This document shows positions 27,715 to 62,189 of a DNA stretch of 64,000 bases, in pieces. The translations under genes and the position numbers were made by a program. The notes under the pieces are model-generated. The model saw only the letters and a program-made list of their open reading frames with translations, had not been told where the DNA came from and did not search any database. The stretch is from Microvirga ossetica (GTDB taxonomy: Bacteria > Pseudomonadota > Alphaproteobacteria > Rhizobiales > Beijerinckiaceae): assembly GCF_002741015.1 (NCBI RefSeq), contig NZ_CP016616.1, positions 2,699,501 to 2,763,500 of the forward strand. The letters are read 5' to 3'. Each line of letters opens with the position of its first letter. The stretch's first letter is position 1.

Positions 27715-28545
27715 TTACTCCGCGATGAAGCGCAGGCGGTGGTCGCGATAGAGATCGATGATCGCCGCCGCCGTCTCCTCGATGGAGCGGCGCGTCACGT
27801 CGATCACCGACCAGCCGTTGCGGGCGAAAAGCCGCCGGGAGGCTGCGAGCTCCTCCGCCACCGCGTCGCGATCCACGTAAGACGTGTCGTCGTCGGCGTT
27901 GAGGCTGAGGAGACGGTTCTGCCGGATCTGCACGATACGCTCCGGCGTCGCGACGAGCCCGACAATGAGCGCTTTGCGAGCTGTCCCGAGAACGGCGGGC
28001 GGCGGCACGCCGGGGACGAGCGGGATATTGGCGGTCTTGAGGCCGCGATTGGCGAGGTAGATGGCGGTCGGCGTCTTCGAGGTGCGGCTCACGCCGACCA
28101 GGATTACATTGGCTTCGTCGAGATCGTGCGGCAGGTGCCCGTCATCGTGGAGGAGGGTGAAGTTCATGGCGTCGATGCGCTTGAAATATTCCGCGTTCAG
28201 CATGTGCTGCGCACCGGGCCGCGCCGTCGAATGGGTGCCGAGATAGGAAGAGAGCAGGGCGTGGACCGGCTCGAGCACCGAGAGATGCGGCGAGCCCGTG
28301 TTGCGGCAAACCTCTTCCAGCCGGTGCGCCAGGTCCTGCTCGACCAGGGTGTACAGCACGATGCCGGGCGCGGTTTCGATCTCGCTGATCACGCGCTCGA
28401 GCTGGGTGTTCGAACGCACGAGGGGATAGACATGCTCGATGGCGGCAACGCCTTCATATTGCGCGACGACCGCGCGGGCGACGGTGATGAGCGTTTCGCC
28501 CGTCGAGTCGGAGACGAGATGGAGATGGAAATAGCTGCGTCCCAC
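27715..28545 (-). CDS. Pyruvate, phosphate dikinase regulatory protein (DUF299, RP001-like)
   Basis: This 276-residue bifunctional kinase/pyrophosphorylase family regulates PPDK or PEP synthase by ADP-dependent phosphorylation of threonine. Visible motifs are [14 protein letters not shown], the P-loop-like [20 protein letters not shown], and [12 protein letters not shown]. It is the homologue of Rickettsia RP001, the gene that flanks the replication origin opposite hemE in Caulobacter and Rickettsia. It is transcribed away from the origin and ends four bases before maf. Confidence 0.95.
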
Positions 28546-28578
28546 GGCTGGTACTCTCTCTGAAGAGGAGTCGATCAG

Positions 28579-28587
28579 TGTGGATAA
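28579..28587 (-). promoter_or_regulatory. Perfect DnaA box
   Basis: TGTGGATAA is the exact complement of the consensus TTATCCACA. It lies about 34 bp from the start codon of the DUF299 gene inside the proposed origin. Confidence 0.8.
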
Positions 28588-28740
28588 AACGCCTGAGGTG
28601 AGAGGTCCAGCACAAGGGCCTGTGGGCTTCGGCCGAATCCATCAACAGCGCTCGCCGTTGTGCGACATCGCGGGTGGCCCATTGGGAGAATCCGGCACGA
28701 ATCACTCGGGCCTTTTCGATTCAGATCTGGTTAATCTTCG

Positions 28741-28755
28741 TTAACGGGCTGTTAA
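28741..28755. promoter_or_regulatory. CtrA-type binding motif in the origin
   Basis: TTAA-CGGGCTG-TTAA matches the full CtrA consensus TTAA-N7-TTAA. In Caulobacter, CtrA bound at the origin blocks initiation in the swarmer cell. A further TTAA six bases upstream has the wrong spacing. Confidence 0.7.
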
Positions 28756-28799
28756 GCTTTAAGATTTCGGAAAGGATTGTGACGGGCCTGCCCCATCCG

Positions 28800-28814
28800 T
28801 TAATGAACCCTTAA
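28800..28814. promoter_or_regulatory. Second CtrA-type binding motif in the origin
   Basis: TTAA-TGAACCC-TTAA is a second exact match to TTAA-N7-TTAA, 59 bp from the first and about 115 bp before the hemE start. It could repress both initiation and the hemE promoter. Confidence 0.7.
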
Positions 28815-28884
28815 CGGCGCTGGCCGTGTGGACCGTCTGTGGACGGGGTTGCGGCTTTGTGATTCACGGCCCAAGAGAAACATC

Positions 28885-28908
28885 AGATTCAAAGATTCAA
28901 AGATTCTA
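28885..28908. repeat. Three tandem 8-bp units each carrying a GATTC site
   Basis: The units are AGATTCAA, AGATTCAA and AGATTCTA. Each holds one GANTC site (28886, 28894, 28902) for the CcrM adenine methyltransferase. They lie about 20 bp upstream of the hemE start in the most AT-rich part of the gap. Confidence 0.8.
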
Positions 28909-28926
28909 TTTATTGAGAGAAGGCCT

Positions 28927-29964
28927 GTGAGCGAGCGTCCCACCAAAGCGATTTTACGCGTGCTGAACGGCGAGCCGGTCTGGCCCTTGCCGATCTGGAT
29001 CATGCGTCAGGCCGGCCGCTATCTGCCGGAATACCGCGAGACCCGGAGGCAGGCGGGATCCTTCCTCGACCTCTGCTACAATCCGAGGCTTGCCGAGGAG
29101 GTGACGCTTCAGCCGATCCGCCGCTTCGGCTTCGACGCCTCGATCCTGTTCTCCGACATTCTCGTCATTCCCCATGCGCTGGGCCAGGACGTGCGCTTCG
29201 TCGAGAACGAAGGGCCGAAGCTCGATCCGGTCACCTCGGAGCAGGACTTCTCGCGGCTCGCCGAGGAGCTGCCGCTGGAGCGTCTCGATCCCGTCTTCGA
29301 AACATTGGATCGTCTGAGCAGGAGCCTGCCGAAGGAGACGACGCTTCTCGGCTTCTGCGGCGCGCCCTGGACCGTGGCGAGCTACATGATCGCGGGCAAG
29401 GGTACGCCGGACCAGGCCCCGGCCCGGCTCACCGCCTATCGCGACCCGGCCTTCATGGATGCGCTCATCGACAGGCTGGTTCGGGCCTCGACCGCCTATC
29501 TCATCCGCCAGATCGATGCGGGTGCGGAAGCGGTGCAGATCTTCGAGAGTTTTGGGTCGGCCCTGCCGCCGGCACTCTTCGACCGGCTGTCGCTGAACCC
29601 GATCCGCCGCATGGTCGAGGGCCTGAAAAGCGCGCGGCCGGAGGCGAAGGCCATCGTTTTCGTGCGTGGCGGCGGCGCCAACCTGCACCGCTTCGCGGCC
29701 GCCGGCATCGGCGACGGGCTGGCGCTCGACTGGACCCTCGATCCGGCTCTCGTGCTGCCGATCCTGCCGGCGACGATCGCCACCCAGGGCAATCTCGACC
29801 CGCTGGCCCTGATCGCCGGCGGCGATGCGCTCGACGACGGCGTCGACCATATCCTGGAGGCGGTGCGCGGACGGCCGCACATCTTCAATCTCGGCCACGG
29901 CATCCTGCCGGAGACGCCGATCGACCATGTCGAGCGGATGATCGCTCGCGTGCGGGGGGCTTGA
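28927..29964 (+). CDS. hemE: Uroporphyrinogen decarboxylase
   Basis: HemE decarboxylates uroporphyrinogen III to coproporphyrinogen III in heme synthesis. The 345-residue protein has the family motifs PIWIMRQAGRYLPEYRE, SILFSDILVIPHALG, FCGAPWTVASYMIAGKG, GADAVQIF-type AEAVQIFESFGSALP and FNLGHGILPETPIDH. I use the GTG at 28927, which follows AGAGAAGG and gives the normal length. The upstream open frame runs through the origin and is not coding. HemE is beside the origin in several Alphaproteobacteria, and hemJ follows 4 bp later. Confidence 0.97.
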   Translation: MSERPTKAILRVLNGEPVWPLPIWIMRQAGRYLPEYRETRRQAGSFLDLCYNPRLAEEVTLQPIRRFGFDASILFSDILVIPHALGQDVRFVENEGPKLDPVTSEQDFSRLAEELPLERLDPVFETLDRLSRSLPKETTLLGFCGAPWTVASYMIAGKGTPDQAPARLTAYRDPAFMDALIDRLVRASTAYLIRQIDAGAEAVQIFESFGSALPPALFDRLSLNPIRRMVEGLKSARPEAKAIVFVRGGGANLHRFAAAGIGDGLALDWTLDPALVLPILPATIATQGNLDPLALIAGGDALDDGVDHILEAVRGRPHIFNLGHGILPETPIDHVERMIARVRGA

Positions 29965-38128: not shown

Positions 38129-38144
38129 TGTTTCACGTGAAACA
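38129..38144. promoter_or_regulatory. parS: parS centromere site 1
   Basis: TGTTTCACGTGAAACA is the exact 16-bp parS consensus recognised by ParB. The symmetry extends to 26 bp (38124-38149). It lies in the mnmE-mnmG gap about 3.5 kb from parB and about 9.2-9.6 kb from the proposed origin. Confidence 0.95.
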
Positions 38145-40201: not shown

Positions 40202-40827
40202 CGAGATCCGCCATGGTGACCGCATCCGACCTGAATGTTTCACGTGAAACATTCGAGAAGCTGGAGTTGCTCGAGCGCGAGCTTCGCCGCTGGCAGGCGA
40301 TCAAGAACCTCGTCGGACCGGCGACGCTGACCCAGATCTGGGACCGGCACATCGTCGATTCGCTGCAGCTTCTCGACCTTGCGCCCGAGGCCAAGACTTG
40401 GCTCGACCTCGGTTCCGGCGCCGGTTTCCCTGGCTTGGTCCTTGCCATCGCCGGCGCGGAGCGGGGGCTTACCGTCCATCTCGTGGAGAGCAATTCGCGC
40501 AAATGCGCCTTCCTGCGCCAGATCGCCCGGCTCACCGGCGCTGCGGCCACGATCCACGAAGCGCGGCTGGAGACGGTCGTTCCGGGCTTCGTCGGAAAGG
40601 CGGATGTGGTCTCGGCGAGGGCGCTCGCCTCGTTGAACATGCTCCTGGATTGGACCGCCCCGTTGTTGAAAGCGGGGACAATGGGCCTGTTTCCCAAGGG
40701 TCGGGACGCCGGGATTGAATTGACCGAGGCCCGGAAAAAGTGGACATTCGAGGCAGAGATCCTGCCGAGCCTGACCGATCCTGACGCCAGGATTCTGCGC
40801 ATTTCCTCCATCGAGAGCCATTCATGA
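40198..40827 (+). CDS. rsmG: 16S rRNA (guanine(527)-N(7))-methyltransferase
   Basis: RsmG methylates G527 of 16S rRNA using SAM; its loss gives low-level streptomycin resistance. The 209-residue protein has the SAM motif [20 protein letters not shown], the [18 protein letters not shown] block and [16 protein letters not shown]. The start is either GTG 40198, overlapping the mnmG stop, or ATG 40213. A perfect parS (40236-40251) lies inside the first codons, encoding the NVSRETF segment, so the N terminus serves two functions. It overlaps parA by 4 bp. Confidence 0.95.
40236..40251. promoter_or_regulatory. parS: parS centromere site 2, inside rsmG
   Basis: TGTTTCACGTGAAACA is a second exact parS, with symmetry extending to 22 bp (40233-40254). 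It lies within the rsmG coding sequence, 2.1 kb from the first site and about 1.4 kb upstream of parB. Confidence 0.95.
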
Positions 40828-41660
40828 TGACCGACCGCAACGGACCCGAACCAGGCGCGCGTGGGAAGCCGCGTGTCCTCGTGCTCGCCAACCAGAAGGG
40901 CGGTGTCGGCAAGACCACGACGGCAATCAATCTCGGCACGGCCCTCGCTGCGATCGGCGAAAGGGTTCTGATCATCGATCTCGACCCGCAGGGAAATGCT
41001 TCGACGGGTCTCGGCATCGACCGCAAGAGCCGTCAGGTCTCGACCTATCATGTGCTCGCCGGCGAAGCGTCGCTGGAGGAGAGCATCACCGAGACCGTGG
41101 TGCCCGGATTGTCGGTCGCGCCCTCGACTCTCGACCTCCTCGGCGTCGAATTGGAGATCGCGAACGAGCGCAACCGGGCGCACCGACTCCGCTCGGCGAT
41201 CGACAGTCTTTCGGCCTTCGAGGTAAGCGAACCTTTTACCTATGTTTTGATCGATTGCCCGCCTTCGCTGAATCTTCTGACCATCAATGCCTTGACCGCC
41301 GCTGACGCGGTTCTGGTCCCCCTCCAATGCGAATTTTTTGCTCTGGAAGGCCTCAGCCAGCTGCTCAAGACGGTCGAACAGGTCCGTTCCGCCCTCAACC
41401 CGGATCTGTCGATTCACGGCGTGGTTCTGACCATGTTCGACCCGCGCAACAACCTGTCGGGACAGGTGGTGGCGGATGTGCGCCAGTTCATGGGCGCCAA
41501 GGTTTACGAGACGATGATCCCGCGCAACGTGCGCGTGTCGGAAGCGCCGTCGCACGGCAAGCCGGTCCTGCTCTACGATCTGAAATGCGCCGGCTCGCAG
41601 GCTTATCTGCGGCTCGCCTCGGAAGTCATCCAGCGTGAACGCGCCCTGCGTGCAGCCTAA
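40824..41660 (+). CDS. parA: Chromosome-partitioning ATPase ParA
   Basis: ParA forms nucleoid-bound ATP dimers that pull ParB-parS complexes apart. The 278-residue protein has the deviant Walker A LANQKGGVGKTTTAINLG with both lysines, the Walker A' LIIDLDPQGNASTGLG, and Walker B VLIDCPPSLNLLT. No N-terminal HTH is present, as expected of a chromosomal type Ib ParA (Soj). The ATG overlaps the rsmG stop by 4 bp and parB follows 18 bp later. Confidence 0.98.
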   Translation: MMTDRNGPEPGARGKPRVLVLANQKGGVGKTTTAINLGTALAAIGERVLIIDLDPQGNASTGLGIDRKSRQVSTYHVLAGEASLEESITETVVPGLSVAPSTLDLLGVELEIANERNRAHRLRSAIDSLSAFEVSEPFTYVLIDCPPSLNLLTINALTAADAVLVPLQCEFFALEGLSQLLKTVEQVRSALNPDLSIHGVVLTMFDPRNNLSGQVVADVRQFMGAKVYETMIPRNVRVSEAPSHGKPVLLYDLKCAGSQAYLRLASEVIQRERALRAA

Positions 41661-41678
41661 GAATATTTGAGAGTGACA

Positions 41679-42563
41679 ATGGCAGAAGAAGGTAAGTCGC
41701 GTCTGGGCCGTGGATTGGCCGCCCTGATTGGCGAGGTGGGGGACGAGATGGGCAACCTCGAGCGCAAAGGCTTCGTGCCGCGCTCGGTGCCAGTGGAGTT
41801 CCTGCGCCCGAACCCGCGCAATCCGCGAAAGGCGTTCGACGATGCGGATCTGCAGGAGCTGACCCAGTCGATCAAGGATCGCGGCATCATCCAGCCGATC
41901 GTGGTGCGGTCGATCCAGGGCACGACCGATAAATACGAGATCGTCGCCGGCGAGCGCCGCTGGCGCGCGGCGCAGAAGGCCGGGCTGCACCGGGTGCCGG
42001 TGGTGGTCGTCCAGATCGACGACCAGACCTCGCTCGAATACGCGATCCTCGAGAACGTCCAGCGCGCCGACCTCAATCCCATCGAGGAGGCGGAAGGCTA
42101 TTCGCGCCTGATGGCCGAGTTCTCCTACACGCAGGAGAACCTCTCCAAGGTCATCGGCAAGAGCCGCAGCCACATCGCCAACACGCTCCGCCTCACCGAT
42201 CTGCCCGTAGGCGTGCGCAAGATGCTGATGGAGCGCAAGCTCACCGCCGGCCATGGCCGCGCGCTGCTCTCGGTGAAGGACCCGGTCCAGGTGGCAAAGC
42301 GCGTTCTCGACGAGGGCCTGAGCGTGCGCCAGGTCGAGGAGATCGCCCAGACCGAGAATGCAACGCCGGCGAAGGCGGAGGCCAAGGCCGCCAAGCCCGC
42401 CAGGACGGAAAAGGACCCGGACACGCGGGCGCTCGAGAAGGCGCTGCAGGACGTGCTCGGCCTCACCGTCAGCATCGACCACAAGGGCAGCGGCGGCGAA
42501 TTGCGCATCAAGTACAAGACCCTGGAGCAGCTCGACGGCCTGTGCCGGCGGTTGAATCCGTAG
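41679..42563 (+). CDS. parB: Chromosome-partitioning protein ParB
   Basis: ParB is a CTP-dependent clamp that loads at parS and spreads. The 294-residue protein has the ParA-interacting N terminus (KSRLGRGLAALIG), the ParB/Srx CTPase domain (NPRNPRKAFDDADLQELTQSI, IVAGERRWRAAQKAGL, ILENVQRADLNPIEEAEGY) and the parS-reading HTH (LSKVIGKSRSHIANTLRLTD). The C-terminal dimerisation region ends LEQLDGLCRRL. Two perfect parS sites lie within 3.6 kb upstream. Confidence 0.98.
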   Translation: MAEEGKSRLGRGLAALIGEVGDEMGNLERKGFVPRSVPVEFLRPNPRNPRKAFDDADLQELTQSIKDRGIIQPIVVRSIQGTTDKYEIVAGERRWRAAQKAGLHRVPVVVVQIDDQTSLEYAILENVQRADLNPIEEAEGYSRLMAEFSYTQENLSKVIGKSRSHIANTLRLTDLPVGVRKMLMERKLTAGHGRALLSVKDPVQVAKRVLDEGLSVRQVEEIAQTENATPAKAEAKAAKPARTEKDPDTRALEKALQDVLGLTVSIDHKGSGGELRIKYKTLEQLDGLCRRLNP

Positions 42564-62174: not shown

Positions 62175-62189
62175 TTAAGGGTCCTTTAA
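62175..62189. promoter_or_regulatory. CtrA-type binding motif upstream of ftsK
   Basis: TTAA-GGGTCCT-TTAA is an exact match to TTAA-N7-TTAA. It lies within the larger inverted pair GGTTAA/TTAACC, 61 bp upstream of the ftsK start on the minus strand, a suitable position for promoter control. Confidence 0.6.

Follow-up and report, generated by a model that had tools for sequence, protein, structure and literature searches.

Organization of the ppsR–hemE Gap

The DNA analysed here is a window of 64,000 nucleotides (64 kb) at 2.70–2.76 Mb of the 5.84-Mb contig C1 of Microvirga ossetica, whose genome comprises 9.63 Mb in six contigs. Between the genes ppsR and hemE this window contains a gap of 381 bp (28546..28926, 53% GC) which is the putative chromosomal replication origin and which holds nine copies of GANTC, the site of the methyltransferase CcrM. 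The left border is ppsR (27715..28545, minus strand; DUF299, phosphoenolpyruvate synthase regulator family; NCBIfam PRK05339, E 1.8e-101, 339 bits against a cut-off of 225) and the right border is hemE (28927..29964, plus strand; TIGR01464, E 7.3e-113), the limits being set by the GTG of ppsR (28545, minus strand) and by the GTG taken as the start of hemE (28927).

An earlier note on this DNA, made from the sequence alone, had listed GANTC at 28568, 28635, 28688, 28699, 28718, 28861, 28886, 28894 and 28902, a perfect DnaA box at 28579 and TTAA-N7-TTAA at 28741 and 28800, and all of these are present and exact. The DnaA box, TTATCCACA (28579..28587, minus strand), is the sole exact copy within the window. 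The two CtrA-type sites (28741..28755 and 28800..28814) are exact sequence matches to TTAA-N7-TTAA; the third exact match of the window, at 62175, lies outside the gap. The hexamer TGTGGA occurs twice at an interval of 11 bp (starting at 28827 and 28838; 28827..28843, plus strand), a pair that was recognized by reading the sequence and may represent weak DnaA sites.

The least stable 40-mer of the region 28001–29500 in a nearest-neighbour scan (28875..28914) was taken as the predicted DNA unwinding element. It holds three of the nine GANTC, those at 28886, 28894 and 28902, which form a tandem with 8-bp spacing and the repeat unit AGATTCAA. The location of the tandem in what is likely the unwinding element is a new observation; it had been missed in the earlier reading, as had the TGTGGA pair. 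The stretch ranking second in instability, at 28729, coincides in part with a CtrA site and was set aside as a candidate for the element. No Rfam family matched the window at gathering cut-offs or the region 28300–29100 at E values up to 1.

Placement of the Chromosomal Origin

Rightwards from the border between ppsR and hemE, the gene order continues with rho and then with open reading frames (ORFs) read as mnmE, mnmG, rsmG, parA and parB, the last two, named from their ORF sequences, being located at 40824..41660 (parA-like) and 41667..42563 (parB-like) on the plus strand. Two exact parS sites (TGTTTCACGTGAAACA) lie 9.2 kb (38129..38144) and 11.3 kb (40236..40251) to the right of the gap. 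The hemE protein is closest to those of named Microvirga (81–94% identity), and hemE is flanked by a divergent ppsR in 77 of 80 named loci.

Strand composition was sampled in 40 stretches of C1 together with the two halves of the window, that is, in 21 samples on each side of the gap. The mean GC skew was −0.0094 on the left (16 of 21 negative) and +0.0147 on the right (17 of 21 positive; P 5.7e-5), the position of this flip being resolved only to about 0.4–0.5 Mb. The strand ratio of the octamer GGGNAGGG was 32:69 to the left of the gap and 95:33 to the right, and inside the window it turned from 4:9 before the gap to 14:3 after it.

Some observations speak against a sharply defined position. 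Cumulative skew is almost flat from 2.25 to 2.73 Mb, with positive stretches at 2.40 and 2.50 Mb, and inside the window its lowest point is near 18 kb; dnaA is located near 2.478 Mb, 250 kb from the gap, and an exact DnaA box occurs about 2 kb from the part of dnaA coding for the C-terminal domain. Skew alone therefore cannot pinpoint the origin, and of the GC-skew check that the earlier note had proposed, the coarse change of polarity at the gap stood, while the exact site could not be fixed in this way. The gap was chosen as the origin site because gene order, the parS sites and conservation of the gap decide in its favour. Backed in addition by the parAB-like genes and by the coarse polarity of skew and octamer, the assignment already made in the note can be kept: the gap is almost certainly the DnaA-dependent origin of the main Microvirga chromosome.

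GANTC Density in the Gap

From the composition of the gap 1.46 GANTC would be expected in a mononucleotide shuffle, 2.23 in an order-1 and 2.41 in an order-2 Markov model, and nine or more were reached in 0, 0 and 0.06% of the simulations, respectively (5000 each). The runner-up 381-bp stretch of the window has four. As a chromosome control, 863,620 bp of C1 (the 40 stretches and the remainder of the window) were divided into 2246 non-overlapping segments of 381 bp, which had a mean of 0.68 and a maximum of five GANTC; the 104 segments with a GC content of 0.50–0.56 had a mean of 0.97 and a maximum of four. It is extremely unlikely that the density is a by-product of an intergenic GANTC bias or of composition without any function at the origin, given the contrast between nine sites in the gap and at most four in the GC-matched segments, and given that six GANTC are near fixed across Microvirga; the comparison covers 0.86 Mb of C1 and a few other loci, among which RepC loci do reach eight or more GANTC per 381 bp.

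Conservation within Microvirga

The genus was represented by 39 gaps, the window's own and those of 38 named records. Three of the 80 named loci (L052, L069 and L079) were dropped for want of a ppsR hit, and L044, titled Microvirga and with a hemE 74% identical, was placed with Enterovirga/Salinarimonas. Another 29 loci (L082–L110) were kept outside the counts; ten of them gave gaps with 7–11 GANTC, some from genomes already counted and some from others. Each of the 39 gaps contains 6–12 GANTC, and with 348 occurrences against 95.0 expected GANTC ranks first among 24 pentamers of like make-up.

Six core sites are each kept in 35–39 of the 39 gaps. These are GAGTC at 28568..28572 (36 gaps), GAATC at 28688..28692 (37) and at 28699..28703 (38), the site at 28861..28865 (39; GATTC in 37 and GAATC in 2) and, inside the predicted unwinding element, those at 28886..28890 (39; GATTC in 38 and GAGTC in 1) and 28894..28898 (35). 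The third site inside the element, 28902..28906, is found in 11 gaps, the variable site 28718..28722 in 26 (GATTC in 21, GACTC in 3, GAGTC in 2) and the rare site 28635..28639 in 2. Positions at which GANTC comes and goes are 28626 (18 of 39), 28664 (22; GAGTC in 16, GACTC in 4, GATTC in 2) and 28671 (13). Beyond the six core sites there are 122 GANTC against 60.8 expected. The shift of the middle base while GANTC itself remains fits selection on the CcrM site as such, and it can be stated with high confidence that the excess is maintained by selection for CcrM sites.

The words TGTGGAT and TGTGGA-N5-TGTGGA were each found in all 39 gaps. Exact CtrA-type sites number two in 28 gaps, one in 4 and none in 7, and the exact TTATNCACA occurs in 18; both are therefore less constant than the GANTC core, so that the presence of the motifs in close relatives, on which the earlier note had staked its reading, held for the core and only in part for the paired CtrA sites and TTATNCACA. 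A separate block, GGGTTGCGGCTTTGYGATTCACGGCCCAAGAGAAACA (28846–28882 of the window), is strongly conserved in Microvirga and matches no motif familiar to us. A search allowing up to 12 substitutions found it in 2 of 55 gaps outside the genus (L037 and L044, nine substitutions each); the block is close to genus-level.

Distribution in the Alphaproteobacteria

High counts extend beyond the genus. The median number of GANTC per gap is 9 in Microvirga (n = 39), 7.5 in Methylobacterium (n = 8), 7 in Enterovirga/Salinarimonas and their kin (n = 7) and 11 in Pseudochelatococcus (n = 2), and in all four groups alike GANTC is the first of the 24 pentamers. At least six GANTC per 381 bp are present in 34/39, 3/8, 5/7 and 2/2 of these gaps, respectively, and in 0/22 of the remaining named relatives (L075, named only as Alphaproteobacteria, was counted here), 0/16 from other families of the order, 2/57 from the class and 0/12 class loci without ppsR, the latter with a median of 1.5 GANTC in 500 bp. 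For the order, hemE was present in 23 genomes outside the genus; of the 20 retrieved, 16 showed a ppsR–hemE gap. The class sample drew on 121 genomes with hemE other than the one studied here. Of these, 69 were covered: the gap was present in 57, including G118 of the same family, and absent from 12; the other 52, mostly weaker hits, are outside the counts.

The density is clade-specific and not typical of the class. In a midpoint-rooted tree of hemE and ppsR, drawn without support values, Microvirga, Methylobacterium and Enterovirga/Salinarimonas group together as a clade that does not include Pseudochelatococcus, a pattern that calls for either a second gain or losses. The unusually high density pointed out in the earlier note, five being the next highest value per 381 bp of the sampled chromosome, is real and conserved in the genus.

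GANTC in the Unwinding Element of Related Origins

The predicted unwinding element ends at most 45 bp from hemE in 37 of the 39 Microvirga gaps and contains a mean of 2.2 GANTC. In all eight Methylobacterium gaps its end lies 62–172 bp away from where hemE is inferred to start, and two GANTC are kept in it. Gaps with at least one GANTC in the element ± 10 bp were counted, with 200 dinucleotide shuffles as the control. Such a site was present in 38/39 Microvirga gaps (shuffle mean 13.9, maximum 24), 28/39 gaps of the other named relatives (12.3, maximum 19), 14/16 from other families of the order (5.0, maximum 11) and 29/57 from the class (11.6, maximum 19). The next best pentamer reached 28, 12, 8 and 14 gaps, respectively; its value of 28 in Microvirga indicates that shared descent inflates the row of that genus. 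Away from the origin, the least stable 40-mers had GANTC in 23 of 160 segments of the same chromosome and in 7/39, 10/39 and 3/26 flanks of the related loci. GANTC is sited where melting should start, an arrangement predicted by the idea, put forward in PMC2865523, that methylation lowers duplex stability.

The words in the element resemble AGATTC, and they could instead be hexamers bound by DnaA on single-stranded DNA, comparable to the AGATCT sites reported for the unwinding region of Escherichia coli (PMC4285127), the match to GANTC then being incidental. The tandem does read AGATTC-N2-AGATTC, and in Microvirga the middle base of the element sites is T in 83 of 85. Outside the genus, though, this base is free: the other named relatives have T 29, A 12, G 11 and C 2, the remaining families of the order have C 9, A 7, T 5 and G 1, and the class has T 17, A 6, G 6 and C 2. 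The arrangement GANTC-N3-GANTC recurs with different letters in Methylobacterium (GAGTCTAAGAGTC and GATTCCTAGAATC), Methylocella (GAGTCTTTGAGTC) and Camelimonas (GATTCAAAGATTC). Since core GANTC distant from the element are also equally conserved, this explanation is very unlikely.

The DnaA-trio of the basal unwinding system is a run of 3'-GAT-5' trinucleotides beside a DnaA box. A crude pattern for it (at least four [A/C/T]AC triplets in a row) was detected in 14 of 57 class gaps; none of the 39 Microvirga gaps matched, nor did any of the 94 gaps from Microvirga, the other named relatives and the order taken together. In many class loci (among L183–L250) the last 110 bp before hemE contain, in this order, a DnaA-box-like word, [A/C/T]AC triplets and an AT-rich stretch, often with GANTC, and from their sequence these triplets look like a DnaA-trio.

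Encoded Machinery and RepC Replicons

CcrM and CtrA, which the earlier note had assumed, are both encoded in the genome. CcrM is found at C1:1272441 (6pbd, E 1.7e-148; 606 bits with the NCBIfam Caulobacter model, below its cut-off of 830) and CtrA at C1:3774405 (422 bits against a cut-off of 350). GcrA is encoded at C1:1707617 (7ye1, E 8.9e-42; 179 bits with the NCBIfam Caulobacter-type model, below its cut-off of 280), and the genome has one Bac_DnaA_C match, that of DnaA. Five GANTC are located immediately upstream of gcrA (L152, 1194–1444) and five about 0.6–1 kb upstream of ccrM (L131, 352–698), against the chromosome mean of 0.68 per 381 bp.

Seven RepC matches are distributed over the five other contigs (C2–C6), two each on C2 and C5, which are perhaps fused or multi-origin secondary replicons. 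Five of the seven loci carry 8–12 GANTC per 381 bp, in clusters upstream of repC (L155, L156, L157, L158 and L160, on contigs C2–C5), and the remaining two carry four and three. Three of the five dense loci resemble one another closely, and the right half of their cluster recurs in a fourth; being partly homologous, they are therefore not independent support. No repAB-like ORF was seen inside the 3.5-kb locus L156.

These dense RepC loci, and the similarity of nine GANTC to the eleven GATC reported for E. coli oriC (PMC10073500), would suit an origin whose hemimethylated GANTC clusters are sequestered by a protein acting like SeqA, as at oriC. No match to the SeqA family (PF03925) was obtained in the genome, with a control search hitting E. 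coli and with no binder sought beyond SeqA, and Caulobacter without CcrM is reported to have a DNA content like that of the wild type (PMC3973325). Sequestration of this kind is quite unlikely.

Proposed Mechanism

As a whole, the data are probably best explained by a DnaA-type origin with a selected GANTC array and CcrM-linked opening. What the sequences show directly is the anatomy of the gap, its conservation, the spread of the array over clades and the presence of the genes. In the mechanism that we infer, DnaA would load at two places, the 28579 box and the TGTGGA pair (28827 and 28838), and would open the AT-rich stretch 28875–28914 beside hemE, and CtrA could block the origin at 28741 and 28800. 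Late in the cell cycle CcrM would methylate every GANTC of the gap, and full methylation would lower duplex stability in the element and make opening easier. After firing, both daughter origins would be hemimethylated and would reopen less readily until CcrM returns, the hemimethylated state acting as a brake in addition to CtrA. Methylation and CtrA binding might in this way tie initiation to the cell cycle, as the earlier note had suggested, and the dense, conserved GANTC, located partly in the stretch expected to open, may reflect a methylation that helps to decide when the origin fires. Methylation-assisted opening, taken as a separate claim, is tentative and somewhat doubtful.

The chief rival to it is a role of the tandem GANTC in transcription, in which GcrA would act on the hemE promoter, and perhaps on that of ppsR, once CcrM has methylated it, and the AT-rich stretch would be a promoter. 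GcrA is encoded in the genome and is reported to work at promoters with methylated GANTC (PMC8116508), the tandem lies about 20–40 bp upstream of the hemE start, and intergenic DNA of CcrM-bearing orders has been described as enriched in GANTC (PMC3973325). On the other hand, least stable stretches away from the origin seldom carry GANTC (the 23 of 160 given above), a simple sigma-70 scan, weak for this organism, gave one promoter-like site and that on the opposite strand, and in Methylobacterium the GANTC pair stays with the element, the inferred hemE start lying 62–172 bp away. This explanation is rather unlikely, and the GANTC sites may hold both the promoter and the origin role.

Several points count against the explanation by a selected array and CcrM-linked opening. 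In Caulobacter the deletion of ccrM is reported to leave the DNA content like that of the wild type (PMC3973325), and the GANTC sites could also be accounted for by a promoter of hemE within the AT-rich stretch. Because of their shared descent, the 39 Microvirga gaps cannot be counted as independent trials. The median number of GANTC per gap is 2 in the remaining named relatives (n = 22), 3 in the other families of the order (n = 16) and 3 in the class (n = 57), and in two groups GANTC is no better than fifth of 24 pentamers, with 16 observed and 11.7 expected in Chelatococcus/Camelimonas and with 35 observed and 26.9 expected in Beijerinckiaceae and others; with low counts in most other groups, a hemE-type origin therefore does not need a dense GANTC array. 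Moreover, class gaps were in many loci taken as origins by their position. Over 73 genomes, GANTC in the element showed no significant link to CcrM, being present in 41 of the 66 genomes that have a strong CcrM match and in 2 of the 7 without (Fisher P 0.12), and the total GANTC count did not differ with the presence of CcrM (P 0.68). To these may be added, with regard to CtrA, that in Brucella this protein reportedly does not bind the origin (PMC2877005).

In a broader proposal, GANTC in the unwinding element would be an old and widespread feature of alphaproteobacterial origins, amplified in the Microvirga–Methylobacterium group into a tandem and an array fixed in the genus; there it would give a SeqA-free, GANTC-based once-per-cycle control, in which full methylation licenses opening and hemimethylation holds the origin shut, shared with the GANTC-dense RepC replicons. 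This generalization is speculative and unlikely to hold in full. An action of CcrM on the chromosomal origin was proposed for Caulobacter (PMC2865523) and was followed by the reported negative deletion result (PMC3973325). GANTC that are near fixed, belong to the top-ranked word and lie partly on the melting stretch single out a clade, including Methylobacterium, and two or three sites for a direct test.

Comparison with Known Origins

The literature on GANTC or CcrM and replication origins was covered as titles, abstract openings and passages of papers available outside subscription. Within that coverage, none of the matches listed deals with GANTC in an unwinding element or treats the origin of Microvirga or Methylobacterium, and passages from three further papers do not mention GANTC in such an element (PMC4221894, PMC8725594, PMC8287927).

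The gap was compared with the origin of Caulobacter crescentus, Cori, through its published description. Cori adjoins hemE, as the gap does here, and has five CtrA sites, whereas two exact ones are found in the gap. Like the gap, it is described as having TTAA-N7-TTAA CtrA sites, DnaA sites and several GANTC (PMC3973325, PMC4285127, PMC4468827). The type of DnaA site differs, being the exact TTATCCACA here and TGATCCACA G-boxes in Caulobacter (PMC4285127). Initiation in Caulobacter has been said to need methylated GANTC, and methylation to lower stability, which could ease opening (PMC2865523), a statement that conflicts with the ccrM deletion result reported later (PMC3973325).

E. coli uses Dam and GATC together with SeqA, whereas the genome studied here has CcrM and GANTC and SeqA was not found in it. 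The 13-mers of the E. coli unwinding region each start with GATC. Common to oriC and the gap is the over-representation of methylation sites at the origin, as reported for E. coli (PMC4285127, PMC10073500). In Vibrio cholerae, adenine methylation likewise is described as acting on the origins (PMC2865523), though this organism is gammaproteobacterial and its site is GATC instead of GANTC. The repABC/RepC origins, already described as GANTC-rich replication loci, with a reported effect of CcrM on the timing of Agrobacterium ori2 (PMC11514494, PMC6090056), resemble the gap in their density of sites and differ from it in the use of RepC, the gap being a DnaA-type chromosomal origin. Set beside these systems, the Microvirga origin is ordinary in kind, several GANTC being reported at the Caulobacter origin (PMC3973325), and unusual in the degree of the GANTC array and in the placement of its sites.
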